NCBI RefSeq assembly: GCF_026151205.1 | Contig: NC_087078.1 | Coordinates: forward strand, 14,649,118 to 14,713,117 | DNA: 64,000 bases | Source of the DNA: Bolinopsis microptera | Lineage: Eukaryota; Ctenophora; Tentaculata; Lobata; Bolinopsidae | Direction of reading: 5' to 3' | Shown here: piece by piece, positions 16,711 through 63,643 of the stretch | Layout: each line of letters begins with the position of its first letter | Position numbering within the stretch: position 1 is the first letter of the stretch | Program-made: the position numbers and the translations under genes | The notes under the pieces: model-generated | What the model was told of the DNA's origin: nothing | What the model saw: only the letters and a program-made list of their open reading frames with translations | Databases searched by the model: none

Positions 16711-16825
16711 GATCCCGAATTTATCATTCAAACTATCAATACAGATGCAGAGGTCTCAAAAGATATCAGCGATGTCGAAGGTTTAGAGCTGCGACTAACG
16801 GAAGACTTTATTGCTCATGTCCATT

Positions 16826-38473: not shown

Positions 38474-38831
38474 ATGAGGCAGGTCTTACAACTTACCATC
38501 TTACTTCTGCTTCAACTTGATTATTCACAGTAAGTGGAACTAAAACAAATATATGGTCCAACATATTGTTGGGGTTTATATAAATTTTAGAGATTTTAAT
38601 GGCCTTTATGCTATAACAAGAGCATGGCTGTGTAAGAGCATGGCTAGACAGAGCTTCTGTTTGTAAAATATTTTAATCAAAATATGACATGAACGATGAG
38701 AAAAATCATTTCAGAAGATGTATCGGAAAATAATTAATTGAAATTTATTACCTAATGTCAAGTTTTGAGTTTGATTTCAAATTTAATGAAAAATCTCCGC
38801 AGTGGTGAGGAATGGGACCCCGAAAACACAC
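38474..38831 (+). CDS. Candidate alternative leader 1 of the Ig gene (two exons)
   Basis: Exon 38474-38529 starts with ATG and encodes MRQVLQLTILLLLQLDYS, a signal-peptide-like sequence, and ends in phase 2 at a GTAAGT donor. Exon 38803-38831 (acceptor CTCCGCAG) encodes HGEEWDPENT and ends in phase 1 at GTAAGT. Phase 1 is what the first Ig exon at 43172 needs. It is supported only by hydrophobicity, splice signals and phase; it could be a different small gene. Confidence 0.42.
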
Positions 38832-41792: not shown

Positions 41793-41850
41793 ATGATCTT
41801 AAATATCAGATATATACTCTGTATTTCGTTGCTCATCAATGCAGCGTCAA
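41793..41850 (+). CDS. Candidate alternative leader 2 of the Ig gene
   Basis: ATG-led, 58 bp, encoding MILNIRYILCISLLINAAS, a typical signal peptide, with a GTAAGT donor in phase 1. Joined to the 43172 exon it continues TDLFVTANTFD. It is the same length and phase as the leader at 42524. Confidence 0.6.
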
Positions 41851-42523
41851 GTAAGTATGATTTTAAACTAATTCGTTAGGAGAATTGCTGAATAAGGTAG
41901 TGTGTAGCAAAACTAAACAGTTTAATTCGTTGGATTAAAGTTAAGTTAGCTTTCTTTATAGTAACAAGTAGTGGTAACAACGCGCTAACATCGTGTCGAA
42001 TATGATAAACTGTCAAAAATCTAGTTTCTTTGTTATATCGGTGGGTTGAATGAACGGATGACTATATTTTGGTAGATCGATGATAGTCTTATATATTAGA
42101 TAAGAAGATGGTAGCTTGTGCGCACATGTTGATATAACGTAATAAACCAACGCACGTCTACTGTAAAACAGCAAAGTGTGATATAGCAGAGATATGGGTT
42201 GGGGTTTGTGAAATTTGACTAGATCGGCAATAAGGGGCAATTTCATTAGGCCTTAGGACTCGAACCATGCGTACAGTTGATATTGATAATAACCTAACAA
42301 ACCACGTGTCAAGAATGCCCATTTGTGACAACTGTATTTGCCATGGTAACAATGCGTAGTTGCCTTGGTAACAAATCGGAGTTGCTTTCTCAACAAGGCT
42401 GTAAGGTGCCCCCTGCTGAGTGAGTTTGATCATGAGATTGGCTCCACCGATATTTGCACAGCACGCTGTTCACTTCACCCACTCTTCATATCTGTTCTGT
42501 CTGTTTACTGACGTGAAGATAGT

Positions 42524-42581
42524 ATGTGGTTAGCACCCACGCTTCTCTTCGACACCTTTATCCTTATCTCAGTCATGTCAG
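42524..42581 (+). CDS. Leader 3 of the Ig gene (signal peptide exon)
   Basis: ATG-led, 58 bp, encoding MWLAPTLLFDTFILISVMS with a GTACAG donor in phase 1. It is nearest to the first Ig exon, separated by a 590-bp intron, and continues as SADLFVTANTFD. I take it as the default start because of proximity. Confidence 0.62.
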
Positions 42582-45500
42582 GTACAGGTCTATAGATTAT
42601 GCGCGAAAAATACTTGAGCCTAAATGCTTCTTTATCACGGCAACACTGTACCGTCGATTGGTGGTGACTCTGAACTTACTAGATTAATAGTTTTAAACTA
42701 ATTACAACACTACAAATCTATTACATTTATTGAGAAAATTGTGTAATGTAATGCGATGGAAGTTCTTTAAGCTGGCAATTCCAGTCCAAACCCTGGAAAC
42801 ATGACATAAAAGATTCGGTTTTACTTCTTTGAATGAAAAGCACTAATGTAATATATCGAAGGAGATAGTTTCAACTTTCAATTACTATGCTGTCACTATA
42901 AAAACGAACCTTAACACTATTTGGAAAATGTCCATGAGCCAAATTCTCTATTCAATCTAACTCCAATGCGAATGTATAGCAACCTTTCAATTATCAGTAT
43001 TTTTTTCTCAACAATCTACGAAAATATGTCCCTGCGCATAAAAAATAAGGAAAAGAAAGCGCAGAAATTATCAGAATCATCACGTCTGAATTTTTAACGA
43101 GTCAATATCAGCAACTGATGAACAGGGACGATCAGGTTCGGCCTAAAACTAACTAACAAGGGAATTTTCAGCGGATTTGTTTGTGACTGCCAACACGTTT
43201 GACCTGATCGGGTTTGTGGGGGGCGGAGTTACAATGTACGCCACTGTGAGGGGAGACCCTCGCCCCACCGCAGATGACATAACCTGGATAAAGATGCAAG
43301 GAAACATGCCCGAGGATCGAATACTGATAACATACGATCTCAAAACAAACGAGTCTAGAATCCGTATAAATGAGCTGGAGTATGACGATGCTGGAACCTA
43401 CTATTGTACTGCCATGATAAACGGGGTCAGCAAGAGCGTCAGCATGACATTGAACGTCGTCGGTAAGTGCCTTTAGGGTAAATATAAATAGATTATCATT
43501 ATATGTGATGATTTTAGTAAGAAAATAATAAATTAGATATTGGTATCATAAGCTTTTAAGCTCTCACATGACCCCAATACCCCATTAGTCCGCCGAATAG
43601 ATTATTCGCTAATCTGGGCGATTTCCACTGCGCCTTACAATTACCATTGTTCAGCGAATTGGCGGGGCATATGCAGTATACAAATTTTTTATTGTCTTTA
43701 GCTTTAAATCCTGTCCATTAGCTTTCTTTCCCCACTTATGCCATAACCTACCCTCAGTGGAACCGGAGATATTTAGAGTAACAGGACTGATGACTTTTAA
43801 AGCAGTTGGTCAGAGTGTAATTCTGAGTGTCACTGTGAACGGCAACCCCATTCCCGCTGCTGAAGACATTACCTGGGCCAAGATGGACAGCAGGAGTATA
43901 CCAATGCCGCTGTCACATGATAGGTAAGCACTAAGTAATGCTATGTGCTAGCTTTTATTGATTTTCATTTTTCCAACCTTGGTAGTGGTGGATATAGTGT
44001 GCGTAAGACTGCAGTTGTATACTTTGTTTATACCAAATTTGATGGAAATTGTTAAATAGGTAATAACAACCATCTCAAGATCGATATCAAATGTCAATTT
44101 TACTCAGATGTATTATATAACACCGTATTTAAATGAATAAAAATGATAACTGGTGACGTTAAGCAATGAGTCGAATGTCGATAAGTGGTAAACCCCTCCA
44201 AATTGATAGAAAATCCCATTTTAAAAGTTATACCACTCGCAGATTTGAGCTTAATAACGGCAACAAAGAGCTCACGATAACTGATCTAGAGATTGCAGAC
44301 GAGGGCTGGTACAAATGTCTCGTAAAAACTGACGAGGGAAAAGCGGAAGCTCCTTTCTTGTTGCATGTTCTAGGTTCGTTTATGTTTAAAATAAAGAAAT
44401 TCAAATTCAACGAGAATTGAACCTTCGAAAAAAATCTTCTTTCCAAGATGCAAGGAACTAGATCTGGTCGGATGTAGGATCAAGGCGTCTTAAAATTATC
44501 GATGCGTATATATCAGACGAGAACGAATTGACACCTGTGAGATTGATGAAGCTGTTATAAATAGTTGCTAGGTTCCACTGCGTAGATTATTCTGACGTGT
44601 TCCTTTGTGGTTGGAGGGGATAGCTGGCAATGACAGCCGGAGTTAATCAGCTTTCAATAGAATCATGAGTGGACGTCTGAAAACCACTAACCAGAAACGA
44701 TAATGTCATCGTGTCGTGACAGTTTGGTATTGGAAACGATTCTTACATGACACGAGGAACTTAGCACTTACATATTTGGTTACGGAACCTACTGCCAAGT
44801 GCCAACATGTTCTCATATCAATTAATTGGCTGTGGAACCTACTGTGAAATTGAACTATAGGTCCGGTCGAGACTAGTTTAAGATAGTTGGCAATTAACTT
44901 GCTAGGAGCTCATATTCACATATTATATTGAACTCCTCCCAATGAGTGAAAAGTTTTAACATTTACTCCTCCCCAGGAATGAGAAGTATCGAGGAAAGTG
45001 CAGTAGGTGTGGTGGGGAACTCAGTGAGTATGTCCTGTGCCGCTACCTATGTGGAGAACGTTTACCCGGGAACCAAAACCACCATCAACTGGTACCGGTA
45101 CGAGGCTCCTGACATACCGCTAGCAGGATCAACGATGGAGTCTGAGGTGATTTGCTTTACGTATTTGCGTTTAAATAACAGTTAAAGTCATCGGACTGGC
45201 AAATAAGCAAAAAAAAGTCACATGACTTGTATAATAAGTCGAGGCTAAATAGTTGGCAGTCAAACTGTCTAGACATAATCCAGTTGAAAATATCGCTGGA
45301 CTAAACAAATATTGCAGGAATCTTCGACTCAAGCGTCCACAAGCGTGCTAACCCTGACTGATCTGGACTGGACCGACGAGGGAGAATACTTCTGTACCTC
45401 GTCCTACCCAGGGTTTCCTGATGATAGCCTCTACAACGCCACCCTCAACATCAGAGGTTAGTGGGTTGTCTCGGTGGGTTTCTTGTGATCTTATGATTAG

Positions 45501-48500
45501 TTAAATAGCGAAATTTTATCTGAAAAGCATCATAAGTATTGTAGAATAGATCTTCTTTCTTCTCCGATCCTAGTAACTTAGCCCCTAAATTCTTCTGCAT
45601 GAAGACTTCCTTTAAATTGAAGCCCGTTACGGTAAGAAATTTTCCGGCGCGTGTTCTTTTAGCTGGCTGATTATGCGACCAGTTGGTTGGTTATTGTTTA
45701 GAAGCCTATGTTTACAAACACTCCTATGTTTATGTGGTTGTATCTTATTTCTTTTGCATGTATACTGTGGTTAGAAGCATCTTTCTTTTACAAAAATCAA
45801 AGTTTTAGGTAAAACTTTGTGTTCCCGTTCCTCGTTTTTCCTCCTAAAAATATTGGAAAAAATAAATAAATAAATAAAACCAAAAATAAAACTAACAAAA
45901 TCTCAAATCAGTCACTCACCCACCCCACTCACTCACCGACTGACACACAAACAAACCGCGTATATCTAGCCGACAGTTGTCGTCGATCCCCGCCAAGTCC
46001 GTCCGGTATCCAAGAAGTGGTCAGTGTCTCAAGACTGGAGGTAGTATTTCATATTTGTTGTTTTGTACCGGTGTAATGTCCGCAAGCAGTCGCAAGCACT
46101 CTCTCGAAGGTTTGCGACCTGTCTTTTCAGAAATATATTATACAAAAATGGAATCTGTTGTCAATAAAAATCTGGAAAATTGTCAATTGAGAGTTGCTTG
46201 ATTGATTTGAAAGGACAATGATAACAGATCGGTAACTGCAGTTTTGTTCAGGTTTGAACAGTATATCAGGCACCGAAGTGGAGGGTGTATTGGGAAACCA
46301 GCTAACTATGACATGTGTTGCTAGAGGAGATATACAGGTGATCCCAATATTTTTCAATTACGAGCTATTATCTGATAAAATTGTACTTTACTATAGCTCT
46401 TGAGACTGTATTTCGAGCTATTATCTGATAAAAGTTTACTCAGTATTGTCTTGATTCCGTAAGATTCGTCAAAAATAACTGTCTGAAACTGACACAGCGC
46501 GAGATTGAAATGATTTCATCTCACGGATCTAAACAGTCAACTAAACACAATCACCAGGCTACAATAACATGGAACCACAACGACACGACCACGCGTGCGG
46601 GGGTAACCACCGAGACAACCTACAGTGCACCCTACACAACAAGTGTTCTGACGCTGCCAGTACCTGCCCTCTTTGATCAGGGAGTCTATGAGTGTTCTAT
46701 CGAGTTCGACGAGCAAACCTCGACCATAACAGGCTCTACTCAACTTAATTTGAACTGTAAGTGCTTTCTGGTTTTGAGCCATGTCCTGGGTCTTTAAAAC
46801 CCATAATTTTCCGAAAGTTCAACTTAATTTCTTACCGGTATGAACGATCGCTTATACCTTGAAGGCTGGAACATTTAGACCTATTTATAGCTTTATCTAG
46901 ACCAATTCATCAACCTTTTCCCAAGCGGGACATTGCAAGATCAGCTACTTGGCTGAAAAACATGCATCTTTTAAATTACAATCGAAACTGATTGCATCTT
47001 CTAAGAATGAAATCATAATCATCTTGCAGCGTAACAGAGCGATCAAATTTTGAGAAAGCTATTACGTAAATGATAACAATGCTACAAAGTAGAAATAGTC
47101 TCTGAGCTAAATTAAAATGACCGCAAGGTTCAGTGTAATAAATATATAACTGTTGCAACAAATTACGTATAGCTATACGTAGCTAAACGTAACGTAATTA
47201 AAGATCTTTTTTACAACCTTCAACTAAAATCTGTTTCCTTCCAGACGTATGGAGGACGTCCGGAGCTGCTCTAGGAGTGGAGGACAATTCCGCAACAATC
47301 ACGTGTTCTGGTATTGGAAACATTGCTCCTGATTCCTGGACATGGAATGATCCCAACACGACGGACAGTTCCCAGGTAAGCCTAATGGCACCCTATTATC
47401 TGTTTAGAAATTATAGATGTAAAGAATACTAAGAGAATTTGTCCATGATACTGGCTTATGGTTTGAAAGAACTCAAGTGGGGACCAGAGGGGTGCCTATT
47501 ATAATATAAACTCCTATTCCCAAATCTATTGTTTTCAAGATGTTCGTTATAAAAAATAATTCAAAGTTTATTTAATTGCAAATAGGGGGAAGTTAGATCA
47601 AAAATTAAAAATAATCCAGTACATAACGGTCACGTTGCTCTATCGACGAACACGAAAAAATTAAGATCCCAATTTTACTTTCTGAGTTAGCTAGATAGTA
47701 TATATAATATATATATATATATATATATTAAAGTCACTATTGTGACGGTACATTAGAACTAGACAGAAACAAAGTGTGAAGGGCCTGAACGGAACCCCTC
47801 GGTTTCAGTTCCTTGTTTAACACTGCCGTACAGCAAGGACATCCACATTCCACCGGGTTCTCCAAGGATGCCATGTCGAGCGGACGTGAAAGATTGGTTT
47901 CTAAATTTGAAGCCTTTTTGTAGAATCTTAAAAGTCCACTGTAATTTCGTGCTTTTAGTGGTACATTGTTTTGAGCCCCGTAATAATATGTAATATCGTT
48001 GGATCTTTATTGAGCGAGATTCAATAATTTGAAGTTATCAGAATCTAGGAACAAGGTAAATTTGGGTTTCTCAACCTCGAATAATGCGCGCTCGCAATTA
48101 AAACATAAATACCCAATGTCACTGTCAAATAACGCTGATTTTCCCTGCCAATTTTAATCCAAATAGTCAGCCTTGTGAATTGGGTACCATTATGTGAACC
48201 ATAAAATTGGGGATTATGGCAACCTTCTGAAGAATTCTGGTGAAATCGCTGCAACAGCTAGAAACCCACATTCGGAAAGACGGCAGATCGGCAAATAATC
48301 TGTGAGGAAAATTTTGGATTTTGGAGTAAATTTTTTGCCAAAGAAGAAATCTAAAGAAGATTCGACCTTTTTTAGGACATAAGAAATTTTTTAAGGGGAA
48401 ATATTGCACAAACTTTACAAACTGCCCAATCATGGGTTATACCAAAATAAGCATGAGTGCCCAAACGTAATTAGCAAAAAAGGATACCAACAATACGCCA

Positions 48501-51500
48501 CTTTGCACTGATAGCTGAGGCGCTGCAATATGCACTGGAAGGTGAGACACAGTTTAAAAGCTGCAATTATGGTAAAATATTCTGCAGAATGCTCTTTGAC
48601 CAGCAATAGAATCAAAACACACCTTGACCTTTAAACAACACCTTCTGTACCGCGCTATAAACTAAAATATCACGAGCAACTGGATTCGTTTAGACATAAT
48701 CCAGATTCCAGTAGAAAATATCGCTGGACTAAAAAAAATGTATTTTATATAAATTTTATAACAGGATAGTAGATTGACGTACTTAAATCAGTGTTTGAAA
48801 AAAAAACTGTTTATATTTCAGTGGAGTACGCTGCAAACGTCAGCAGATAGAAAAGACTCCAGTGTATTCTGGACGGTGAACAGGTTCGACGCGGGCTCGT
48901 ACACGTGCACAGCGCACTACGAAGCTAGAGGAACCAGTACTGGAGAGGTAGATCTCACTGTTCAGTACATCAAAACCAGCCCCCTCGATCAGACTGCAGT
49001 GCACGGAACTGACTCTACTCTAACTTGTGTCGCTAACTTGGCTCCTGATTCTTTCAAATGGTGTGTTTTATGATCGATAGCTAAGCATTTAAAATCATTT
49101 GAATTTCTGCAGTATTGGTAAACATTTGATAATCGCTTTGACATTACATGGGACAGTTTACGTTTTGATAATATGAATTTGTCAACTCGAAGATATTTAT
49201 TGGATATTATAGCTTTATGAGATGTAAGACTTCGGGTTTTACTCGTAGCGTCAAGACATCACGTCTTGCATCAATCAATCTATCGAAGCAATTCGAGATT
49301 TCACGAGAAACACCATTACCAGGTTCAAAGAGACAACTGAAATGGATACCCCCACTACCTCCTCCCCAAACCCTACAACCTCCCTCCTGGTCCTCTCTCC
49401 AGTTGACTTCGAGCATGCAGGATCGTACAACTGTGAGGCTGTGTTCTCGGGCAAATCAGCTAAAAGTCTAACGTCCACATTCTTTGTACGGGGCTTCAAG
49501 GTTCATCCTGAAGTAAGTTTGCGTACCAATCTTATCAAGGTAGTATTAAATTAAGCTAGTTAGGTTTGCAGACTGAAGGATGCAACTTTTTGTCGACTAA
49601 CCTGTTGACATTTCATGACCAAATGAAGGTTTTTGGATACATATTTATTATTTATGAGAATAAAGTGACAGTAAAGATGACTCTGCCCAGGACACGACGA
49701 CTGTAAACATGACATCTGCGACCCTGTCTTGTCTTGCTATCGGAGAGAGTGCTCCTCTACTGAGCTGGTACCGGGGTACCACCAAGCTGGATCATGGTCC
49801 TACTGTCAGCATGTCTTCCAAAGGTTTGCAAAAATGGGAGAGCGTGCGGAATTTGTTTTATTCGAATGAAAAGGCGGGTACTGCGGCTATTTTTAAAGCA
49901 GTATTAAAACTGGGCTCTCAAGCTAGAGTATTGCTATTTATGGTGTGGAAACATTTTAAAACTTGCTCAACTTGACCAATGATGATCTGTCCGAGTGACG
50001 ACTGACGCTATTTCGAAAGGGTAAACACCTGGTTAAAAACCTTTTATACCTTTAAACGACTAAACAGGTTGAATGGCTATTTGAACTTTAGGTTTACAAA
50101 TTAAATTGCTCCGTACAGGTCGTTTAAAGCAATACGTAATGTTCTCATAGTTTTTCAGCTCGATAACCACAGTATTTCAAATTAATTTTACATTCATGTT
50201 GCAAGAGAATCCAACTGAGTACAAGAAACCTGATTTAACAAGAGGTTTTAATACATAGAGCCCAAGCTAAACCAATTTCCAACCGAACTAAATGATGAAC
50301 CCCAGATTTCTCTGCAGCTTTCGGATACGAGGCGAGCAGTAATCTGACAATCTCCCTCCTCTCTGCAACAACTGACGATTATCACTGTTCTGCTCGGTAC
50401 GATGACGTCACAGTGACGTCATCCTCCGCAACCATCCGAGTGCTGGGGGTTAAGAGCGCTCCGAAGGACAGTACCGGAGTTATAGGGAACGACGTGGTGC
50501 TGGAGTGTGACCCAACTGAACAGACGGGAGTTATCACCTGGCTTCACAACGGAACTGACATCACGGTACTTACTTTTCAATATGTATCAGTTTTGGGCAA
50601 TCGGTTAATTATCAACAGAGTGATCCAATTGTCTCATTCTAAAGTTGAAATCGGTCCAGACCATGCCTTGAGAAAGTTTAATGTAATTTGTTTGCCCCTA
50701 ATTTATTTGCCCCTCACTGCAGATAGTCTAACTACACTGTATAGCTGCAGATGATATAAGTGCATTGCAGATACCTAAGCTGCATATTATATGCATAAAT
50801 AGTCTAACTGCACAGCAGATAACTTAGCTGCAGATGGCATAACTGCACTGTTAGCTGAGAAATATCTTTTAGATATCTTTTAAATGTCTTTAAAATATCT
50901 TTGAAATATCTTTGAAAGTGTTCAAGGTTTATTTTCTTTTTCTGAACAAATAAGTGGTTATCCCTGCGAGCGATCTCATTGAGAAATGTGCACTGTGCAG
51001 GTAGATTTACTCAGTGCAGGCAACAAGCCACAAGGTTAACCTGGTCCGGACAACATAATTACCAGAGTGGACATTTATTAAACGTTGCAGATCTCGCACA
51101 TACATGTGCACCGTTTAATTTCATAATTGATCTTCATGAGGCAAAGACTGTATAACCGTAAATAGCTAGTTTGACACCGAGCAAAGTGAGCACATACTGC
51201 AGAGTGCAGAGGTTATAATCATACTTGCAGAAAATATATTAACAACCGGGGAAAACAAGTGGTGCCAGCAACATTTGTATGATTTTGAATGTGATAAAAC
51301 GAGTGATACCAACTTCTCCCGAACCATGTACCCTAATATGAGGTGTTAGTTAAACTGTAACCACTTTTTGTCAGGGTACCTCCTCAATCACAGTAACAGA
51401 AGGAGTATCTGTTCTACACCTCGACAGTGTGACTTGGATCACTGCTGGAGTGTACCAATGTGTTGTGGACTACGCTGACTACGCTAACCCCACCTACGCT

Positions 51501-54500
51501 GCTCAACCTGCTACTCTCAGTGTTAGAGGTATGTTAGAGAGGGGGTGGATCTACTAATTAACTAATTAGTTAACTAATTAGTTTAATAATTAGTTGATAG
51601 CGTTTTCTGAGCATTGGTTTAAAATTATTTCTTCAGGGTTATCTAATATCTATCAAACTTGCATAATCATGCACAGGGCAAAGCAGATTCTGAATGACGC
51701 ATGTCATCGACTAACTATCACTCTAAATCGAACATTTTAAGCTGAACACTAGCAGATTCTAGCATTCGCTACTCTTTCAACAGCATTACATATCTAATCA
51801 GTGTTATCTTTCTGAATTCTGATGCGAAGAAAGAGAAACATTGAGACAAAAGCCGATCTACTTACAATTATCATATAAACCAAACTCGCTTCAGCTTCGT
51901 TTCATATAACCGAACTCGCTTCAGCCTTACAAGCAATATTTCATAAACTAAAGCACAAGTATGTCATTCATTTAACTAGATGCTTTTAATAAAGTTTCAT
52001 CAATCATGCTGATTACATTTCAAAGTTGGCTTGAAAATATTTAATATTGATCTCCAGATTGCTGCATGACTGCCACGTTTGTCGGTCAATTAACATTAAA
52101 ATAAATAACTTAAAAACGAAATTCCACTGTTCATCTCTTTTTATTATAAGCTTTAACGTAATTTCGTGATCAGTGAAGCAGCTTTATTGCTCTTTAGAGT
52201 ACTAAAATGAACAACTTTGTTTTATGTAGCACTGTCAGTTTGTTGTTTTTAATAAGTACAGTGAAGCATACTTACTTAGGACGTTATGGATACTAATTTA
52301 GTTATAGACTTACTTAAAGATTATTGAGGTTTGCTCAAATTTCCTATAATAAATTGCCCTCCGAAACGTTACTTAACACTAATAATGAAGTGTTGCATCA
52401 AATTTATCGCTCAGACATTTCGTCCTCCTGTGAGAAAAAAAAAACAATTACCCATCACTTTAAACTGCCTTATAAAGCACAATAATCAAAACTGGAGTGT
52501 AATAGTAATGTTCGTGGTGGTTACTGGAATCTAACAACATGTACTCTGTGTAAACTCTCACGACCGTTAAAATTTCACGTGACATGATACAATGTCACGT
52601 GACATGCACTCTATTCAAGTCTAGGAGATTGGAGACTCTAAGATTCTGCAAACATAACAAGCAGAGAGATTTCAATGATTGGACTGGGATGAGAAAAGTA
52701 ATTTTGTCCATTGTGTTATTATGAATTTATTGTGTTAGTCTGCTATTATGAATTTATGACAAGAAAAAGTATAGAAAATCATAGTCTATAAGTGAGTCAT
52801 GTAGATTGCAATAGACAATAGGTGTAAATTGTAAGGCGTATAAAAAAATGGGCTGCAACAAAAGGAGCTGTTTGATAAGCTAAAGCACTAAACAGAACGA
52901 AAATGCTTAAATAAATGTAAAAGTAAAGATGAAAAAGTTCGAGAAATTGAAAATATCAAGAGATTTAAACTGACAGTAACCTAAAAAATTGCAAAGCAAA
53001 CCTCAAAGTAGGATTCCCAACAGATATTACCAATTAAAGAATCAAGTAAATATATCCCCTGCATATTAACCCGCACCAACCTGCAGGAGTCACGCAGTCC
53101 CCAGAAAGTGTTATAACAGAGGAGGGTTCGGACGTTACCCTGACTTGTCTGACTACGGGACCTCCTAGTCCTACCATAACTTGGTACAAGACTGGGGGCC
53201 AGGACTTGGGCCAGGGCTCACTTCTTAACGGTAAGTAATCGCAAAGATACAAGCAACGCTTTCTATATATTTTGATGGGCTAAGCAATCGTTTTCATTTA
53301 GCGTTGTAACTAATTTAGTAGAGCAAAAGTAATCTGGTTTATACGTATAATACTGTCATAGAGTCTCTTTTGATGATTAAATAATTTACAAGAATTTACC
53401 TCAGATTACAAGAGCCTATTAGTCCTGTCATCAGTGGATTTGACTACAACAGACGACTACAAGTGTGTTGCTGACTACAATGACCTGGGAACTCATCAGA
53501 GTGAGATAGCTTCCCTGATCGTTAGAGGCATCCAAAGCCACCCGGTAGCGACAACAGCCGTGAAGACTAACACTGCTCGTTTTACCTGTGTTATTCGCGG
53601 CGACAAGGCCCCATCCAGTATCACTTGGTCGCGTGACGACGAGGCAGTTGACATGACAACAGCAAGTGTTGCCACGACGACAAGTGGTGACGACACAACG
53701 ACGGTGTTAACTCTGACTAATGTGATGACCACTGGGAAATACAAATGCTCTGCTCAGTTCGAGAGTCCTGTTGGGGGAGTTGTGTCAGGCTCTGCTGATT
53801 TGACTGTTTTAGGTTAGTTTTGTGACGTAACTTGGGATGCAAATATTGACTTCTTGTTCTGTAGTGTGACATCAAAAGAGCAAAATAAAGTATGAATCAG
53901 CGTGATGATTGCTCGTGAACTACAGGTTTATGATTTTAATTCAAATTGCCTCCGACCAACGAACACTCTAATATAATCTACCATAACTTCGGTTGTTTCA
54001 ACAAATTGCTACGATTCAAATTATAAGAATTTCGATTAAAATTAATAGGTTTTTGTGAGATGGTACGGTAGTGGTACCGACCATCCCCTATATAATGCGA
54101 ACGGAATATTATATACTTGAAAATTAAAAACCGTCAAATGTTAATTATGAGAAATGTCAAAGAACTTAAGTTTGTCCCATCCGTCGTCAAATTAGTTGAT
54201 ACAGTGCCTGGCTGCTGTTAAATTATCTTTTATGTAAACTTAAAAAGATATAATCTTGTTAAAAGCCAAAACTAACGTAATTAAAATGATGTTGTTAGTA
54301 TTCCTGACATATCCAATCACTCGTTTGATCGTTATAAGGTTATATAAGTGATGATTAAAATGTGAGTCCTAATCCCGTGACCAAATTCAAGTTAAAATGA
54401 TGGGCCATCATTGGTCACACTGTATATTGACTTACAAGTTTTATATCGACACCTCTATTTCGTCAATCGATTTGCATGTTGATATACAGTGTAGGTAGCG

Positions 54501-57032
54501 ATGTCGGCGCGATCATAATCAAAGAAATCGTGACTAAAGACACAACCGGAGAAGAAAATATGATATAAATCGGAAAATTTGAAAGAAGCTGGTACATCTT
54601 TTAAAACAGAAAGGTTAAAACCTAAATTCTTTTTTCTCAGAATCACAATATAAAATAAACCGTCCCACAGAGTACACAGCAGTGCCCCAAGACACAGACA
54701 CAGTCCTAGGATACGCCCTGACCTTCACCTGCAAGGTTCACGACAACCCAGCCAGTCTCAAGTTCTACCATAACGGCACGGAGTCTGTCTCCGGGGTCAC
54801 AACCAACAACAACGTGGCTACTCTCATTGTGGAGGAAGTGGGGTTGAGCTCGGCTGGGGAATACTACTGTGAAGTGGATTATTCTCCTTCACTGGACACG
54901 CTAGGTTCGTGATATCTGGGTTATAGAGCTATTATAAAACCGAAATATTTCACAATTTTAAGTCCGTTCTATAGGCGAGGTAGTCATGAAGTACTTTGTA
55001 AATAATCAGGAACAATGATATCATATCTTACGGATTAAGATCTCGCTGTAACTTTTATCACATGACTTGATCTATTGTCTCGTCAAACCATTGACCAAAA
55101 TTAATCTCTGCAGGGGGGAATCTCGATAGTTCGGTTGCCATCGTAACTGTCAGCTCCTTTATTTACGAGCCAGAGGATGTATACGTTAAAGCGGGAAATA
55201 GTGCGGACATGAGTTGCAGAACAACGAGCTTCATTCAACCTATCTTCACTTGGTAAGTGCGCCTGATTATATTGAAAAGTGTTTAGGAATCCCCTCAGAA
55301 AATTTTGGATCGATGATTGGCCCCAAATTGAACGAACTCATTACGCTCATCAAGAAATTAAAGCGTATAAACCAGATTACTTTTGCTAAATAAAACGTGA
55401 AATCATAACCCGAAACAAGGAACATGGAGGCCTGGGACTATTTTATTTATCCGATTTTATTATAGGTCTTAAAACTAGTCTTATTTCAAAGCTACTAAAT
55501 GATTCCTTTCACCACACTTGGAAAGATATTATGATAATGCAACTGAAATTTCCCGAGCATATCACCATCTCTGTAGAAAACGGTCTCGCAAATATCAACT
55601 GTAATTTTACACAGGACGTACTTGATTGCTACACTGAGTGGAAGATTAGTTCGGCTAATGCAGCCTTGGGTTCTATAGATCACTGTGTGTGGTCCAACCC
55701 AGCAATAACTGGCATCGGGTCCAAACTTTGGAACAATCATCTTATTGATAGGGGAATATTTTACATCTCAGATTTCCTTTCTATAGACCAAAGTACACTC
55801 CTTAACTACGATATGTTCATGAACAAGTGGGAGCTGTCTCCGAATACGATTTCCAAAATTGATTACTGTAACATTATCATGGGGATACGGAGATATAACT
55901 GTCCCACGATTAACTCAAGGAATATCGAATTTGTTGACCCGAATATAAAACTTCAATTTTTACATTCTGCAACTGGGCAGGTGAAGGGAAGCAAAATTCG
56001 GGATAAAATGTACGATTCTATTTGCCCAAACGAGCTGTCTCCTTTACGTCAGTGGGTTATCGACTTGAACAGTCATTCCATCGACTGGGCAGTCGTTCTA
56101 AGCAACCTGTTTTTCTTAGTATCTAAAAACTTTAAGTTGATTCAATTTCAGTACAAACTTTTAATGAGGATCACAACTTGTAGATACATGAGACATAAGA
56201 TGAAAATTGTTACAGATACTCCCATGTGTAGCCTGTGTAAAACATATTTAGAAACTATTCCTCATATTTACCTCCATTGTATTCACACAAATAGCTTCAT
56301 CACAATACTTGAAGACTTTATTAAAAGGAAAATCGATAGAAATTACGAAGATCCTACTAAAATTAATTTTATAATCTGTAATCACACTTCACAAATTATA
56401 AATTATTTTAATATCGTTGCCAAATGGTACATTAGCAAAAAATTTCAGGCAGGAGACTTGCCGATCTGGCAGGGGTATATCAAACTTCTTAAGCTATCAC
56501 TTCAAGGAGATAAAATAGGTCACAGAAGTTCTATTGTGTCGATCTTGGCCGATTAGGGTATTATGTCCACTCCATTTTTATTGCTGTCTAAGTTATTTAA
56601 TTTTTATCAGTTATTGTTACAATCTTGCAGTACTACTAGTAGCTGTCTTTTTGTAGTACATGCCCTGCTTCCTTCCTTTCCTAAATTTCTTACAAGCTCC
56701 TCCAGCCTCCTCTCTTACACCCTTTTCACTCACTTCATTTCACTCATTCACTTTATATTTTATTACCACAGTATCTGCCAAAACCAACATGGCCTAAGTA
56801 GAAAGGGGCCTTGACGTTGTTTCCCGCTTGGCCCTGCATCCCAAGCTGACGGTTGGCCTCCACTCTAAAGAAACTTACCTTCAGTGAAGGCCGATGGTCA
56901 ACAATTAGCGATGTAAGAGCTTGGCGAGTACAAATCCTGACCTCCTTTTACACCTTTGGGACGACTTTCGCAAATGCGAGAGGAATGACCCCGAGGAGGG
57001 CTCCATTGGTTTTAGTAGGTTGCATATTTAAA

Positions 57033-57063
<31 letters not shown>

Positions 57064-60000
57064 TTAAAGCGGCTGAAGGAAAGTTTTGTTCGATCTCTGA
57101 AGCTAAAGCACGCCTGTTATGGAATATGGTGTTTATACTGTTATGTAGATGAAACATGTAGATTGTAGGCGCGCATTGCGCAAATCTATATAATATGATC
57201 TACATATTGTGACTTTTAGAACTCCAAAGAACAAAAAAGATCAAAAACGTGAAAACTATGACGTGAGAATTGAGATAACTTAAATTGTGGACTTGGCTAA
57301 AACCTGGGCGGCGAAACGTACTTTTGGCCTTCCGCGTTTTTGACGTCTTAACATTTTGTAAGTTCAAGTTGCAACTCGGTCCTGATTGGACAACAGGCGA
57401 CAAGTTTCAAGATCAGAAAACCACCCCAACTCTATTAATGTCAGTTAGAGTCAGTTAGGGACAGTTATCTAAACGTCTAGGTGTTACAACTTACAACGAG
57501 CCATTAACAGACAATCGCTAAGTAGGTATAGACTTTAGCTAGTAGTCAGTAGAGTCGAAGGTCTAAAGTTATTGTTGTTGGTACACAATGGAGAGACGTG
57601 AAAAGGTGATATCTTGCATTTTACTTAAGTGCATGCGCTATATTATATGAAACATGCGAGGAGCTTGATTTGAACTAAATCGCAGGGCGAATGGCGATAT
57701 CTAGATCGATCTAGCTCGATCTAACCAGGAGAGAAACGGTTATACTTATAATACAACAGACTAAGATTTTGAAAAAGCTCTTAGGTAAACAGTATAATAA
57801 GATATGCAGATAAAGCCCTAACTTAGAGTCTATGGTCTAATAAAAGCTTCTATAACAGCCATTATTGTGAATATCATTTAGAGTGGACAGGAATGCTCGT
57901 ATCAAGCTTTGACTGGGTGGTGGATGGGTTTTATACGATCCACGGATGACGTAATCCAGCAATAGCATGACATGATAGATTATCTGAAATTGATAAAGTC
58001 TCTTTATCTGACAGCATGCAACAAATCCATCAGGCTTGATTCTCATTGGTCCCCATAAAACGCCTTGAAGTGAAGTTTCGACGTAAATCAGGCAAAATCA
58101 TATATGTCATACCAATTATCCATCCTTGCTCGCGTGCCGCATGGCAGGTTTGAATTCTCTAACTTAACAAATTGATTCGACACCGGAAATTGCACTCTTT
58201 ATTATAGTTCTATATCAAACTATGATGTAAGATTAAAGAGAACTCTATTCTATATATTAATTGTACGCGGGCTCATCGACAAATAAAAGTACCCCAGAGG
58301 CAGGCAGTGCAGAGCATCTTCATGCCATCCTCTCGTGGGCCATCCAGGTCCAGCTTCTCTTTTTTTTTAAATAAATGTTTTTTTTAGCAAACGTGAAGGT
58401 CCAGAATTACACTAACGACTTACGACCGATTATTCTCCAGGAAAACAGGACCTGTGGTAACAAACGACGGAGCAATATCTGTTGCTAACTGGGACGCAAC
58501 GACACTGAACGACGAAGGTCCCTACTGGTGCGACGCCAAGTTCGGGGATGTTGGAACACTAACATCTTCCACCGCCGTTCTTTATATCCGAGGTAGGTTA
58601 TTAGCCTGTCACTCACTAGTAGCAAGCACTGCTCTACCGTTAAAATACGACTAGTTTCTCGTGCCCTGTTCTACGGTCTAAGACCTGTCAAGGAATGAAG
58701 GTTGGACTGCATCATTTAAATTGGATGGACCCTCAAATGACAATTTTAACAAGATCGGAGGAGCTGCGTCCGAAATGGCAGATTGGGTGACTTCGTCATA
58801 TTGTCACCTTTATTCTTTCTGCCAGTCTGTCGCGGCCTTTTCGTTCCATTAACTCTCATAGCCTCAGGAAAATTAATCTGCTCTCAATTAATCAGCTATC
58901 AAGACTCCACCGACCGAGAGAATGGTGGTTCTAGGACATGACGCCGCGCTCACGTGCGAGGTTCACGGCAAGGGCTTGATGTTGGTCACGTGGCTCAATG
59001 ACGAGGAAGAGGTAAAAGTGGACTCTGTGCCGACGGCAACAACTCTTGTAACCAGCGTGTTGGAACTAACCGAAGTGACTGAAAATAAGAACTACAGCTG
59101 CAAAGCCACTTTTGCTGATCCAGATGATGAAATCTTATCGGATTTGACTCTCGTTTACGTGGACCGTGAGTGGTTACTTTTTAATGTATATTTAAAAATA
59201 GAAATAATATCTAACAAGCCAGGATTAGCGCTATATTATTACTACAAAAGACAAAATTGTAATGCAATTGAACTAAAGGAGACCTGAAATAACCATATTA
59301 AGTTTAATTGATAAAATTTAAAAAATATCAATTGAACATAAAAATCGCAATCAAGTAAGACTGATCAATAACCTTAATAACTAATTTCAGAGATAAAAAG
59401 CGTAACGAGCTCGGTAACTCTAGTCTCAGGACAATCTGCTACTTTGACTTGTACCGCTGATCAGGACCCGACCTTCTCGTGGTCCTACGTGGATACTGGA
59501 GACATTATCAGCGATAACATCGTCAATACTCCTGGTACGTTGTGTTGTGTCATTTTGTTTTTGCACGTGTCGCGCTTGTTTTAAAGTTTAGGGTATATTC
59601 AGTTTAAGTAGAATAAGAAGTAATTAATGGTGGAGTAGTTGAAGTTGGAAGAATTCAAAACGTACAAAAATAAAGTTTTATCAAATGCAATGTGAGAATG
59701 TGCATTACCAGTCACTACTCTGTTCAAATTTGTCGAACATTTATAATGAAAGTGACTTGGTGAAAATAATCATGAAATGCGAAACAGAAACCGTTATATT
59801 GGCTGATAAACAATGAAATCGACTATTCTTGACAACCAGAGCCAATATACAGTGCAATATTGTCACATATTTGATCAACTGGGCGAATAATCTTTGTGCT
59901 AAAATAATGGGAAACGAGTAGAAAGCTTTCAGATTAAAGTAAAGCTTTCAAAGAATTACAAAGTTCTACACCTCGTATTATATAAAGCGAGAAAGTGGAA

Positions 60001-63000
60001 GCTTGGTAGCTTTGTAATCCGCTGGTTCACACAGTGACGCACAGTTCATGTGTTATGCACTTATATAGTATAGTAGTTATATGTGTATATATATATTATA
60101 TATAATATTAATATACTCACAGGAAACCGTCTCTTTGATTCGACACATTAGAGGAGTCGTTGGAAATAATATAATTAATTTTCGCCATCTAATTCTCGGA
60201 CAGGTCTATGATCAGAGTTTTCTTCCGAAGAAAAGGCAATCTTCATTCTTCCTGTCCACTTCATACTGAAATTTTTGACGTCAGAGAAATGCTGTGATCA
60301 ACTCTGACATTAACTTTAAATTCCATTTCTAACTTGGTTCCGTGCAGGGAGTTCGGAGCTGATATTGCCAGGGGTAACGACAAACACCTCGGTACAATGT
60401 CACGTGGTGTACCCAGAGACTCCTGGATACACTCTCGGTGGCAGCCTGACCTCAAACTCAGTACCGGTTATTGTTAACGACATTTCCATTCATCCCAAAA
60501 ATAGGACTGTTGTTATTGGTGAGTTGTTATTATTTTAAAAGGATTTTTCTCAATGTTTCCCCCGTTTTGCCTCAATCTCTACGAGGAAATATAAGCCTAA
60601 TTCATACTATTTTCACGAGATTAACGTTATCTGACCTAATGTAACCCTGTATAACATATAACCAGGTTATGCCACAACGCTGTACTGTGCGGGAAACAAC
60701 GAGCCTGCTATCTCCTGGTACAAAGACACCACCCTGATCAGCAGTGCCTCACCTCTGGTTATAGAGTCAGCTCAGACTTCTGATCAGACATCTTACTACT
60801 GCTCTCTTACTTGGGAACAGGTAAATAGGGTGTTATCTGGTAGGTTAAGGTGTGTTATCCACTGATTGAAACGTTATCGGGCCAGTCCAGTATCATAGGA
60901 GTTATATCCATTTTCAGGTATAAGTATTAATATTATAGGTATTAGGCAAGGTTATAAAAATTACAACGACTAGTATAATTGACGACGGAAATATTATCAG
61001 TAATCACCTTCCTCCTGGTCCCCTTCATGATAACCACATAAACCCTGCAGGGTTCGCTAACTACTGATAAAGTGAGGGTAACAGTGCTGGATATCCTAGT
61101 GCACCCCATGTCCGGAATAGCAGTAGATGGAGGTAACACTTCAGCTAGTTGTTCCGCTCCTGCTCCTGCTACTTTCCTCTGGTACGTTCTGTTCTTATTC
61201 GGCGATGGAATGTTTTGGGCAAATAGAGAAATAGGTACATACCGACCAGCTTAAGTGAGCTTATAGCCGGCCGGGCTTTTTTAGAGAAGGTTTTGTTATA
61301 AAAGTATAGTTTGAACTATCTATCCGCAAAATAAAACGTTGCCTGAACACTAAATAACCAACCCTCCAACCTCAGGTACAATAACGACGTGAAAGTGGAC
61401 CCGGACTCTGATGCACGATACACCATCACCTCCACCACCAGCTCTGATACCTCCAACACCCTGCTGACCATCACTAACGCTACCCCTGACACCGATGGTA
61501 GTTACGCGTGTGAAGCCGAGTATCAACCGGATCTGAGTGTAGAGTTTGTGGGAGGGAAAGTGAGGAGTAACTCTGCTACCCTTACTGTTTACAGTAAGTT
61601 ATAGTATAGATTTTACACCTTTCCTGTTCTTTCAGCTGGCTGTCTTTGTTTGTGGAACTGGAGAGCTAGAGCTGGATGTATTCAACAAACATGATGTTTA
61701 AATAGTTAGAATGCTTAAATAGTCACGTTTTTGTAAATTTTGCCATCATTCCAGTTTCTGCGAACCATAGTTACCAAGTTACGTAGTATCTAAAATTAAA
61801 TGAACTTCCAGGAATAATAGGACACCCTGAAGACAAATTTGTTTTACTTGAGAACAACATAACGTTGTCATGCCAACTGAACGACAGCGCTGCCATCACG
61901 TGGTACCACAACGACAGTCCTATTGGCCCCGGAGTTACTTCCACTCAGGGTAAAACCATAACGAGCGAGTTTGCCCTGTCTAAAGTGGATTGGGACGATG
62001 CTGGGTTCTACTACTGTGAGGGTTCTTACTCTCAGGGAAAGATCACTTCTACCCCAGCTAAAGTATTTGTTAGAGGTGAGAATGGTTAACGAGTACTTAC
62101 TAAATATTATATTGAATGTAGTGAATCCTGGGTTTGGAAAGGATATGCCCGTTTAAAATATTTCCATCACGTTACATTACATAATTCTCAATAAATGTAA
62201 TAGATTTGTAGTGTTGATAGTCTCAACTAGTGTCTAGTCCTTTCTATCAAGCGTTATTTAAACTGGTCATTGGTTATGGTTTTTTACTATTAATGTATAA
62301 ATGTATACAATGGGCCACAACTATACTAAGACTAACCAACATTCAAATTATGGATCGAAAATCGAGTGGTTGAAAGAGGTATTGAGAATAAAAGGGTTCA
62401 TGCGAAAAGTACAATTTATATCATTGTCCCCTATGCTTCTATGATCAAGACAAAATATGAATTCTCCTGTAACATGTCGGTTACGGTTTGCTTATTACTT
62501 TATTGACCTGAAAGTGGCTACAGTAAAACCCCGATTTACTGTGCCCCGGTTTACCGCGGATGTTTCCTTCCCCCAAACTGCGTGGTAAATCGAGGTTTTA
62601 CTGTATAACGAAGAAAATCCTCAACTTAAAAATTAAAAATAATCATATATAGCCCTATACTTACGATGATATAACACATAAATAATGGTATGGTTAAGAC
62701 ATTTCCTATTCCCAAAACTACTTGCTTCCATTTTTATAGCGTAAGTGCAATGCAGACGTCACGCCTGTCGGAAAATTTTGATTTCTCGGTGACAGAACCT
62801 TTTATTTTGATTTCTGCGTCACAGAACCTATTTATTTTTAAAGGATTTGATGGAAGTATTCATTTGATTTACCCAATATCGTTTCGTATTAGAGTATTAG
62901 AGAACGATTTTAACAGAACCTTTCAAATATTACCAACATCCGAGCAACAGGTTCCTCGGAAATTGTAACTGCAATCATTTTAGCGCCGACAAGTTCCAAC

Positions 63001-63643
63001 TGTAAATTGTAATGACATCACCGAAATTGTAATGACATCACCGGTTTTGTCATTAAAAAATGCAATTTGGACGAAAATGCAATTATTCCGACAAATGACG
63101 CCGCGATTCAATAGTCGCCATTACAAATTGAAATATTTTAGCTCTAGCTTTGCAGTACACGAAAGAATTGAACGAAACAGTTAAAGTTAGATCTATAGCT
63201 CAACTCTCTCCCCTCCAGGTATTTGGGAGGCCCCAGAGCCGGTATTAGTGGTCCTGGACTACCCAGCAACATTCCAATGTGTGTCACGTGGAGAAGCTGA
63301 GATCACGTGGTCTTATGGTGAGGTGGAGATGGCGAGCAGTAGTTCTGAGTACGGGGAAAGCAACTGGTTAACCATTGCTTCTTTGACAATCGGTTAGTGC
63401 TTTAGTTCTTTTAAACATTCATGTAGCTTCAACTTCCAATAATTTGATCACTAATTTCTTCATGTAAATTTAAACTCTTCCAACCTTCTTTTAATGATTA
63501 AAGATATAACCCCCCTGACCCTCCTCCTCCTCCTGCAGATCCGATATCAGTACGAGATCCCGCGCTAGTAACGTGTCATGTAGACTACACCTCTTCCGAT
63601 CCTATGTCCATCATTTCTGAGGCACAGTCCATCACTGTATTCA
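42524..63643 (+). CDS. Giant Ig-superfamily protein, at least 18 Ig-like domains, incomplete at 3' end
   Basis: Twenty-seven internal exons were placed by acceptor and donor sequence, reading frame and phase. With the leader they form 5,044 nt of uninterrupted coding sequence (about 1,681 residues). Every domain-to-domain junction that is split is phase 1; introns inside domains are phase 0, 1 or 2. The domains are I-set/V-set-like, with a B-strand Cys, a C-strand Trp (often ITWY) and an F-strand YxC preceded by DxGxY. No membrane segment, FN3 or other module appears before the window ends, so the protein may be a long secreted or membrane-anchored adhesion or recognition molecule (hemicentin-like length, or an allorecognition-type ectodomain). 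Function and orthology are not established. Individual domains are listed separately. Confidence 0.88.
43172..43462 (+). CDS. Ig domain 1 (single exon)
   Basis: 291 bp, phase 1 to 1. ITWIKM gives the core Trp and DDAGTYYCTAM the F-strand Cys. The B-strand reads VTMYATV, with Tyr in place of the usual Cys, so the canonical disulphide cannot form. Most similar to domain 2. Confidence 0.88.
43758..44373 (+). CDS. Ig domain 2 (exons 43758-43923, 44243-44373)
   Basis: Phase 1, internal phase 2, phase 1. The join is HD-R-FELNNGNKEL. The acceptor CACTCGCAG at 44241-44242 was chosen because it restores frame and Ig spacing. ITWAKM supplies Trp and DEGWYKCLVK the F-strand Cys; the B-strand is VILSVTV with Ser where Cys is expected, as in domain 1. 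Confidence 0.82.
44977..45456 (+). CDS. Ig domain 3 (exons 44977-45146, 45318-45456)
   Basis: VSMSCAAT, INWYRY and DEGEYFCTSS give the full Cys-Trp-Cys core. The internal intron is phase 0 (after STMESE). The intron contains a short sequence also found upstream of the second exon of domain 5. Confidence 0.9.
46252..46756 (+). CDS. Ig domain 4 (exons 46252-46337, 46558-46756)
   Basis: LTMTCVARGDIQ then ATITWNHND: the phase-0 intron falls before the Trp strand, earlier than in the other domains. F-strand DQGVYECSIEF. Ends phase 1. Confidence 0.9.
47245..48974 (+). CDS. Ig domain 5 (exon 47245-47375 and first part of 48822-49060)
   Basis: ATITCSGIG, SWTWND, then after a phase-0 intron of 1.4 kb, FDAGSYTCTAHY. 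The second exon runs on without an intron into domain 6, so the boundary intron present elsewhere is missing here. Confidence 0.88.
48975..49482 (+). CDS. Ig domain 6 (end of 48822-49060, start of 49323-49512)
   Basis: STLTCVANLAPDSFKW ends at a donor that splits the invariant Trp codon (TG|G, phase 2). The next exon gives FKETTEMD and EHAGSYNCEAVF. Domains 12 and 16 share the same Trp-splitting intron. Confidence 0.87.
49483..50452 (+). CDS. Ig domain 7 (end of 49323-49512, 49691-49823, start of 50318-50565)
   Basis: The A strand (FKVHPE) precedes a phase-0 intron. Then ATLSCLAIGES and LLSWYRGT; a phase-1 intron; then LTISLLSATTDDYHCSARY. Two introns lie inside one domain. Confidence 0.86.
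50453..51528 (+). CDS. Ig domain 8 (end of 50318-50565, 51375-51528)
   Basis: VVLECDPTEQTG, VITWLHNGTDIT, phase-0 intron of 0.8 kb, then ITAGVYQCVVDYADY. The intron carries degenerate short tandem words (AACTGCA and ATATCTTT types, about 50720-50920). Confidence 0.87.
51529..53086. other. Intron, 1.56 kb, nothing recognised
   Basis: AT-rich. TCACGTGACATG occurs twice at about 52576 and 52595. An ORF at 52331-52534 has no family features. Confidence 0.5.
53087..53535 (+). CDS. Ig domain 9 (exon 53087-53230 and first part of 53405-53812)
   Basis: DVTLTCLTTGPPSPTITWYK, phase-1 intron, then LTTTDDYKCVADYNDL. The 408-bp second exon continues directly into domain 10. Confidence 0.9.
53536..53812 (+). 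CDS. Ig domain 10 (rest of exon 53405-53812)
   Basis: An intronless domain fused in the same exon as the end of domain 9: ARFTCVIRGDKAPSSITWSR and TTGKYKCSAQFE. Thr-rich C'-E region. Ends phase 1 at GTTAGT. Confidence 0.9.
54671..54904 (+). CDS. Ig domain 11 (single exon)
   Basis: LTFTCKVHDNPASLKFYHNG: Phe replaces the core Trp. F-strand SAGEYYCEVDYS. The last strand seems to be completed by the first residues of the next exon (DSSVAIVTV). Confidence 0.87.
55114..58592 (+). CDS. Ig domain 12 (exons 55114-55252, 58441-58592)
   Basis: The first 15 or so residues finish domain 11. Then ADMSCRTTSFIQPIFTW with the intron splitting the Trp codon (phase 2), and DEGPYWCDAKFG in the next exon. The 3.2-kb intron contains the L1-like LINE. 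Confidence 0.86.
55270..57063 (+). mobile_element. L1/Tx1-like LINE 3' fragment with poly(A)
   Basis: KCLGIPSENF (about 55276) and then REIITRNKEHGGLGLFYLSD mark the end of an L1-type reverse transcriptase. The 341-codon ORF at 55531-56556 is the C-terminal region, with CSLCKTYLETIPHIYLHC, the Cys/His zinc-knuckle block. One frameshift lies near 55380 and an in-frame stop just after. A 23-A tail ends at 57063. It is in the sense orientation inside the domain-12 intron. It is 5'-truncated and inactive. Confidence 0.88.
57064..58440. other. Intron remainder, nothing recognised
   Basis: AT-rich, with clustered GATCTAGCTCGATCTA words near 57703-57722. No exon-like segment before 58441. Confidence 0.45.
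58896..59165 (+). CDS. Ig domain 13 (single exon)
   Basis: The acceptor TTAATCAG was chosen because it gives phase 1. AALTCEVHGKG, LVTWLNDE, ENKNYSCKATF. Donor GTGAGT, phase 1. Confidence 0.85.
59391..60475 (+). CDS. Ig domain 14 (exon 59391-59534 and first part of 60348-60518)
   Basis: ATLTCTADQDPTFSWSY, phase-1 intron of 0.8 kb, then NTSVQCHVVYPETPGY. The CHVxY block and WSY core resemble domain 18. Confidence 0.86.
60476..61080 (+). CDS. Ig domain 15 (parts of 60348-60518, 60666-60820, 61051-61181)
   Basis: The A strand (NDISIHPKNRTVVIG) is on the exon ending domain 14. Then TTLYCAGNNEPAISWYKD and TSYYCSLTWEQ, a phase-0 intron after the F strand, and the G strand TDKVRVTVLD on the next exon. 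Confidence 0.85.
61081..61593 (+). CDS. Ig domain 16 (end of 61051-61181, 61376-61593)
   Basis: TSASCSAPAPATFLW with a Trp-splitting phase-2 intron, then NTLLTITNATPDTDGSYACE. Ends phase 1 at GTAAGT. Confidence 0.88.
61812..62075 (+). CDS. Ig domain 17 (single exon)
   Basis: ITLSCQLNDSAAITWYHND and DDAGFYYCEGSYS: the most canonical domain of the set. 264 bp, phase 1 to 1. Confidence 0.92.
62076..63218. other. Intron, 1.14 kb, with one MITE
   Basis: Contains the Tc1-like MITE at 62521 and a duplicated AAATTGTAATGACATCACCG at about 63006-63042. The ORF at 62690-62968 is non-coding by appearance. Confidence 0.5.
62521..62603. mobile_element. 83-bp Tc1/mariner-type MITE
   Basis: Inverted ends CAGTAAAACCCCGATTTAC and GTAAATCGAGGTTTTACTG (one mismatch) are flanked by TA on both sides (62519-62520, 62604-62605), the Tc1/mariner target. 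Intronic. Confidence 0.88.
63219..63643 (+). CDS. Ig domain 18 (exons 63219-63392, 63539-63643)
   Basis: ATFQCVSRGEAEITWSYGE, phase-1 intron, then ALVTCHVDYTSSDP. Ends phase 1 at GTAAGT, so at least one more exon follows beyond the window. Confidence 0.88.

Follow-up and report, generated by a model that had tools for sequence, protein, structure and literature searches.

On balance, a gene on the plus strand of the DNA analyzed here appears to encode a type I membrane receptor of the immunoglobulin (Ig) superfamily, with a signal peptide, 30 divergent Ig domains, one membrane span, and a 335-residue tail, and with adhesion or recognition as its role. The stretch in question, hereafter the window, comprises 64,000 nucleotides of the ctenophore Bolinopsis microptera (C7:14649118-14713117 of a 264.65-Mb genome, in which C1 to C13 are contigs) and contains the 5′ part of the gene. 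The flank to the right was analyzed over the next 70 kb and then over 20 kb more, with the numbering continued from 64001. The final, curated model comprised 55 exons, spanned about 54 kb of the plus strand, and encoded 3,171 residues with 30 Ig domains; it contained no stop, and its phases were consistent from 42524 to 96714.

An initial annotation, made from the window alone, had described 27 internal exons that joined without a stop or phase conflict into about 1,680 residues with 18 Ig domains and without a membrane span. The curated model reproduced this open chain, with the same number of internal exons over the same span (43172-63643), which together with a signal-peptide exon made 28 exons, and with 1,681 complete codons up to 63643 and 18 Ig domains. 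The lack of a membrane span held within the window only, since a span and tail lie downstream at 89342-96714; the gene looked anchorless because the window cuts it. Rightward extension, which the annotation had proposed as the way to an anchor and a tail, found both, the span being encoded at 89342-89549, about 25,000 bases past the window. The open joined frame, its domains, the one signal peptide and one span of the model, and the constraint on its last exons are read directly from the sequence. The exons, with any splice score below zero in the window, were as follows.

42524-42581 (+), first exon, putative signal peptide MWLAPTLLFDTFILISVMS, ending in phase 1 (hydropathy only)
41793-41850 (+), possible alternative first exon, signal-peptide-like, phase 1 (unproven)
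38474-38529 (+), possible alternative first exon and start of the initial annotation, phase 2, needing a mini-exon at ~38803 (unproven)
43172-43462 (+), Ig 1, single exon, without the first conserved Cys; acceptor -1.8
43758-43923 (+), Ig 2 first half, without the first conserved Cys
44243-44373 (+), Ig 2 second half; donor -0.2
44977-45146 (+), Ig 3 first half
45318-45456 (+), Ig 3 second half
46252-46337 (+), Ig 4 first half
46558-46756 (+), Ig 4 second half
47245-47375 (+), Ig 5 first half
48822-49060 (+), Ig 5 second half and Ig 6 first half, fused
49323-49512 (+), Ig 6 second half and Ig 7 start
49691-49823 (+), Ig 7 first half
50318-50565 (+), Ig 7 second half and Ig 8 first half, fused; donor -0.1
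51375-51528 (+), Ig 8 second half
53087-53230 (+), Ig 9 first half
53435-53812 (+), Ig 9 second half and Ig 10, fused
54641-54904 (+), Ig 11, single exon, without the core Trp; donor -0.2
55114-55252 (+), Ig 12 first half
58441-58592 (+), Ig 12 second half
58896-59165 (+), Ig 13, single exon; acceptor -1.3
59391-59534 (+), Ig 14 first half; acceptor -1.3
60348-60518 (+), Ig 14 second half and Ig 15 start
60666-60820 (+), Ig 15 core; acceptor -1.0
61051-61181 (+), Ig 15 end and Ig 16 first half
61376-61593 (+), Ig 16 second half
61812-62075 (+), Ig 17, single exon
63219-63392 (+), Ig 18 first half
63539-63643 (+), Ig 18 second half, last exon in the window
63644-64000 (+), intron cut by the window edge
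64790-89158, continued numbering (+; C7:14713907-14738275), exons 29-48, Ig 19-30
89342-89549, continued numbering (+; C7:14738459-14738666), predicted membrane span and start of the tail
91895-96714, continued numbering (+), remaining tail, with the stop at 96714 (C7:14745831)

Gene model and continuity of the array

The Ig exon chain in the window is beyond chance. With a codon table derived solely from the open frame of another gene, on C9, which itself has one I-set match, the best exon chain on 42500-64000 scored 223.3. Ten order-2 Markov simulations and the reverse complement all scored 1.8, the lowest value that the method can give. An upstream stretch of 21.5 kb, used as a further control, scored 38.0 forward and 1.8 reversed. 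Frames with an Ig signature began at 43.2 kb on the plus strand and ran past the window end; on the minus strand, no match at E<1 to a profile built from the gene's own domains was found in the 100.9 kb searched.

Exons were chained with our own script, which combines codon log-odds with generic splice matrices. The early and curated passes had the start fixed at 42524, and in the single-chain passes a penalty of 500 per new gene start imposed one chain. The first pass gave two chains, meeting at 67.3-67.5 kb. A pass in which new starts were practically forbidden gave a single chain, 42524-96714, in which a few exons were doubtful and one junction carried a stop; when the thresholds were loosened, the chain ended in simple repeats. 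Missing half-domains were added by eye-reading of the frames before the final pass, which was curated in that hand-picked Ig-looking peptides received a bonus and repeats and a reverse-transcriptase stretch were masked by filler.

We infer that all of these exons belong to one transcript, and a single gene across the array is the probable arrangement. A rather unlikely alternative is that the array belongs to two or more neighboring genes, with at least one N-terminal multi-Ig protein that has no span and, downstream, a distinct receptor that has one. Both were weighed with free runs of the finder, in which starts were unconstrained, the bonus was dropped, and the codon table came either from this gene or from the C9 gene only. 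With lenient splice thresholds, one gene was obtained in all 8 settings, one of which started at 43234. Several results weigh against a single gene. With strict thresholds, two to four genes were obtained in 7 of 8 settings, with breaks at about 50.8, 54.9, 67.3, and 76-85 kb, so that the split near 67 kb was common to the start-fixed first pass and the strict free runs and the others appeared in some cases. Six acceptors and five donors in the model score below zero and were retained for the Ig pattern. A 13-kb intron (75207 to 88224) parts the two halves of Ig 29, and it contains a signal-peptide-like frame, 76418-76471, with a donor of 1.0 in phase 0 that could splice in phase into 88224. 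Domains 1 and 2 differ from the rest in lacking the first Cys, and the domain-1 exon has an isolated relative on C11 (C11:14809555-14809842, 76% identical, with an open frame; 79% DNA identity over 567 aligned bases when the flanks are included, C11:14809381-14809935), near which no other Ig exon was predicted on its strand within 20 kb.

Against several genes stand, besides the lenient runs, the consistent phases from 42524 to 96714 and the position of the breaks at 50.8, 54.9, and 67.3 kb, which coincide with model donors scoring -0.1 to -0.2. At 61 and 67 kb, four signal-peptide-like entries were rejected as starts because each overlaps an Ig exon in a different frame and shares its donor. 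The entries at 76418/76424 lie in the intron and are not explained away in this manner. The 76418-76471 frame is possibly the start of a short downstream form, the product of which would open with half an Ig domain.

Signal peptide, membrane span, and tail

In the joined protein, the hydropathy peaks were those of the span (2.63) and the signal peptide (1.83), and three stretches within Ig domains reached 1.51-1.63. The exon at 89342-89549 reads SAVKVVTVASASSLLVFIIAVCTAVMLFALYRRRKRK..., a predicted membrane span followed by the basic stop-transfer sequence RRRKRK. By hydropathy, the curated model thus unites an N-terminal signal peptide, the Ig array, a single span, and the tail of 335 residues.

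The initial annotation had started the gene at 38474. That frame is indeed signal-peptide-like, but it is one of three such candidates (38474, 41793, and 42524); 42524 lies nearest to the array and splices directly into it in phase 1, whereas 38474 ends in phase 2 and needs an extra small exon. The exons at 41793-41850 and 42524-42581 are both in phase 1 and about 730 bases apart, and they possibly represent alternative promoters. When signal-peptide-like entries were counted over 134 kb as a null, 22 were found on the plus strand (7 in phase 1; several share an exon) and 18 on the minus strand (4 in phase 1). At this rate, a single signal-peptide-like exon close to the gene counts for little as evidence, and a pair within 750 bases for somewhat more.

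The span and tail likely make the multi-Ig protein a receptor, as predicted from sequence. The tail had no Pfam family over the cut-off and no kinase or phosphatase domain, and its one solved-structure match had an E value of 0.83; a receptor tyrosine kinase or phosphatase was rejected because Pfam detected no catalytic domain there. A motif scan of the tail found YDNE and YENE (both YxN), one YxxQ, one YxxL, and two RxxPxxP-type stretches (KIPPPTP and RNLPPLP were listed) and found no immunoreceptor tyrosine-based inhibitory (ITIM), activation (ITAM), or switch (ITSM) motif, no NPxY, and no C-terminal PDZ motif. Two points here tell against the receptor interpretation: such short motifs are weak evidence that arises easily by chance, and all 14 genome-wide matches to the span and tail fell at this locus and a nearby copy, so that no paralogue with the same tail was found.

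A protein with very many Ig domains might instead be secreted or part of the matrix, as hemicentin is, or serve inside the cell as a scaffold resembling titin, and secreted splice forms would be possible. Both are very unlikely, given the signal peptide, span, and tail and the lack of any VWA, EGF, TSP, FN3, or kinase match. In addition, connectitin, the precursor of titin, has been reported to be missing from ctenophores (PMC12198301).

Composition and relatives of the Ig array

The hidden Markov model search of the joined protein that the initial annotation had called for, here against Pfam, placed Ig families along its length (Ig_3, E 6.4e-138, residues 1-1682). Only Ig-type families matched at E<=0.001, and they were found in both halves; Unc5_NetrinR_N and below-cut-off Adeno_E3_CR1 matches were counted with them, as we take these to be Ig-like. 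By eye, both Cys were kept in 28 of the 30 domains and the core Trp in 29 (domain 30 was read from its exon), the exceptions being domains 1 and 2, without the first Cys, and domain 11, without the Trp. The mutual divergence noted earlier was borne out in the 15 domains that were aligned, of which only Cys, Trp, and Cys were invariant and which were 20-29% identical to the first. Residues 1-2690 contained 21 N-glycosylation sequons.

Many domains were split across two exons, and some domain borders had no intron. Among the introns placed before a domain by a distance rule, 21 of 22 were in phase 1, a bias that fits tandem duplication of a two-exon unit; the array may have been built by such duplication of a two-exon, phase-1 Ig unit. 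The same phase-1 borders would permit in-frame skipping of many whole domains, as in a hypervariable receptor of the Dscam type that produces many forms through alternative Ig exons. That explanation is extremely unlikely: no unused Ig-like frame of at least 22 codons was found on either strand of the 100.9 kb, in which the 15-domain profile left 20 leftover matches with a best E of 1.3. The model therefore looks complete for Ig exons and free of alternative cassettes.

The Ig profile matched 6,727 distinct structure-database sequences, the best 60 of which include titin (the top PDB match), Robo2, Dscam, DCC, contactins, and sidekicks, matches that are best read as generic Ig similarity. The absence of a recognized family, as first reported, held within the libraries searched, which returned generic Ig similarity only. 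So did the distinction from titin, hemicentin, and Dscam by domain content, with no match to FN3, kinase, EGF, VWA, or TSP.

The search for a second copy used protein queries limited to domains 1-2, domains 24-30, and the tail. For domains 24-30, the best match outside the locus was at C3:3.58 Mb (27% over query residues 22-319, E 1.2e-9), followed by C5:16.06 Mb (36% over 90 residues, E 6.4e-7) and C10:2.907 Mb (27%, E 8.1e-7). The C3 multi-Ig gene has similar Ig domains but also a Sushi domain among its Ig exons, and no tail match was found there. The C5 gene has an ephrin-receptor-like domain; a part of it that looked Sushi-like by eye had no Pfam match.

Other PF07679 Ig clusters in the genome were rejected as paralogues. 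They had first resembled paralogues because many matches cover half a domain, and the 3′ ends examined, those of 4 of the 9 clusters, held different gene types: one multi-Ig gene carrying TSP1, another in which no other domain was seen (by eye), a MAM/LDLa/Kringle gene, and a peroxidase gene. Multi-Ig genes with TSP1 and with haem peroxidase lie at C9:9.19-9.20 Mb and C11:12.9 Mb, respectively. A hemicentin-type G2F domain read by eye in the C9 gene had no Pfam match and was discarded.

A second copy of the 3′ end

The 3′ end of the receptor gene, from about 86.2 kb, recurs together with a zinc-finger gene 34-51 kb further right. The two copies (86232-102461 and 120554-153989, continued numbering) were 91-97% identical outside simple repeats and 77-86% identical within them. 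Across 7 of the 9 coding exons, there were 3 non-silent and 13 silent differences, giving proportions per site of 0.0036 (pN) and 0.052 (pS); the comparison omitted 92182-92505, where the number of a 14-residue repeat differs, and 95685-95785, where the alignment was gapped. The second copy is either a segmental or tandem duplication or an unmerged second haplotype, and whichever its origin, the C-terminal coding sequence appears from these counts to be constrained.

These data bear on whether the gene is decaying or unexpressed, a most improbable explanation. It would be favored by a reverse-transcriptase-like frame, 55390-56556, that sits within an intron; it is opposed by the lack of a stop in 55 exons and, at the duplicated end, by a pN much lower than pS, a result that covers C-terminal exons only.

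The 55390-56556 frame, 388 open codons in the intron splitting Ig 12, had a weak zf-RVT match (E 4e-4, below the cut-off) and is likely the end of a retrotransposon without long terminal repeats. The tail contains an in-frame 14-residue repeat of the HPSPITPLQPFSRE type at 92182-92505 and 131143-131676, the second copy being 210 bases, or about five units, longer. The two 3′-end copies have large insertions between them. The gene after the receptor, at about 101 kb, encodes a U11-48K-like CHHC zinc finger, presumably as in gametocyte-specific factors.

Comparison with known Ig proteins

Sialoadhesin (Siglec-1, CD169) is, like the predicted ctenophore protein, a type I membrane protein with an extended series of Ig domains that projects far out from the membrane. 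Its 17 domains are reported to span about 33 nm, and versions shortened to 4 or fewer domains did not bind red cells (PMC10027830). The ctenophore protein differs in having 30 domains rather than 17, a tail of 335 residues, and a domain 1 without the first Cys. In proportion to sialoadhesin, 30 domains would reach about 58 nm. Sialoadhesin belongs to a vertebrate family, and the likeness would be one of architecture; common descent or sialic-acid binding is unsupported. Many Siglecs carry an ITIM in the tail, and Siglec-1 is without one; the motif of those many members was not found in the tail here.

Dscam, Robo, contactin, DCC, and sidekick share a membrane-linked multi-Ig ectodomain with the protein. 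They carry FN3 domains, Dscam having Ig domains and then FN3, and arthropod Dscam has arrays of alternative Ig exons; in contrast, the gene described here had no FN3 match and no cassette exons. Hemicentin and titin resemble it in their very long Ig arrays. Hemicentin has VWA, EGF, and nidogen-type modules and no membrane span, and titin (connectin) is intracellular with FN3 and a kinase, whereas this protein had no VWA, EGF, FN3, or kinase match and has a predicted signal peptide, span, and tail. To our knowledge, a pure-Ig membrane ectodomain of 30 domains is longer than any known. No publication on this gene or on giant pure-Ig ctenophore receptors was found in a search that covered mainly open-access texts without supplements, so such work may exist.

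Possible function

An adhesion or recognition role for the multi-Ig protein, as first suggested, is plausible. The initial annotation had also placed the gene alongside SRCR/LDLa receptors; the two short SRCR- or LDLa-like exons, seen by eye, had no Pfam match. As to ligand, signaling, and cell type, we infer rather than observe. In a type I receptor of this build, the Ig array would form a long stalk that lifts the domains binding the ligand well clear of the cell coat, and the outer domains would bind partners on other cells, particles, or matrix. Clustering would expose the tail tyrosines in YxN contexts (YDNE and YENE) to kinases, with phosphorylation as the result, and the YxN sites and proline-rich RxxPxxP-type stretches would recruit SH2/SH3 adaptors. 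The receptor would act like a very long cell-adhesion molecule.

A more specific proposal, held only tentatively, is that of a ctenophore-specific receptor in which domains 1 and 2, without the usual disulphide, read the surfaces of cells or microbes and the tyrosine- and proline-rich tail signals. The same architecture could also be mainly mechanical, that of a tissue-cohesion or adhesive-cell molecule, which we consider doubtful. An Ig stalk is suited to load bearing, and one report describes the Ig domain PF13927 as common to toxin proteins and colloblast candidates in ctenophores (PMC6278862); the YxN and proline-rich tail, by contrast, looks made for signaling, weak as that indication is.

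If the single gene is real, a comb jelly has an Ig receptor with 30 Ig domains compared with 17 in sialoadhesin, an extreme variant of the multi-Ig type I receptor, the broad kind of which is already known. One proposal places ctenophores as sister to all other animals (PMC10232365). Were the ctenophore-specific recognition reading correct, the gene would represent a lineage-specific solution to surface recognition in that proposed sister group.

Window neighborhood and Ig arrays elsewhere in the genome

Both candidate exons of rhodopsin-type seven-transmembrane (7TM) receptors in the window were confirmed by Pfam.

27975-28425 (+), 7tm_1 exon
~33339-34356 (-), 7tm_1 exon

An exon at 15096-15242 closely resembles part of the 27975-28425 7TM exon, and a 144-base tandem repeat of 5.4 copies at 15980-16752 is read through in a predicted exon. 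The neighborhood adds little to the interpretation of the receptor. In the genome as a whole, no zf-C4 domain was found, a result that suits a ctenophore but does not by itself establish absence, and a search for COX1 was likewise negative.

At C5:15.992-16.047 Mb lies an array of similar single-exon Ig domains, with 57 matches that were 68-91% identical to a composed query. Within C5:16020000-16029999, exons of a second type, 321 bases long, are interspersed with these Ig exons in mostly alternating order, and almost every exon has phase-1 borders. The array, 55 kb long, possibly holds over 100 Ig exons, and Ig and ephrin-receptor-like exons lie close to its end; it would be either a giant protein or an alternative-splicing array and is perhaps more interesting than the receptor gene itself. 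Very regular Ig exon arrays, with periods of roughly 950-1040 bases and with many copies that score equally or similarly, were also seen at C4:3.526-3.552, C9:10.552-10.562, C7:10.778-10.783, and C1:1.164-1.174 Mb, and these would reflect recent tandem amplification or assembly effects.

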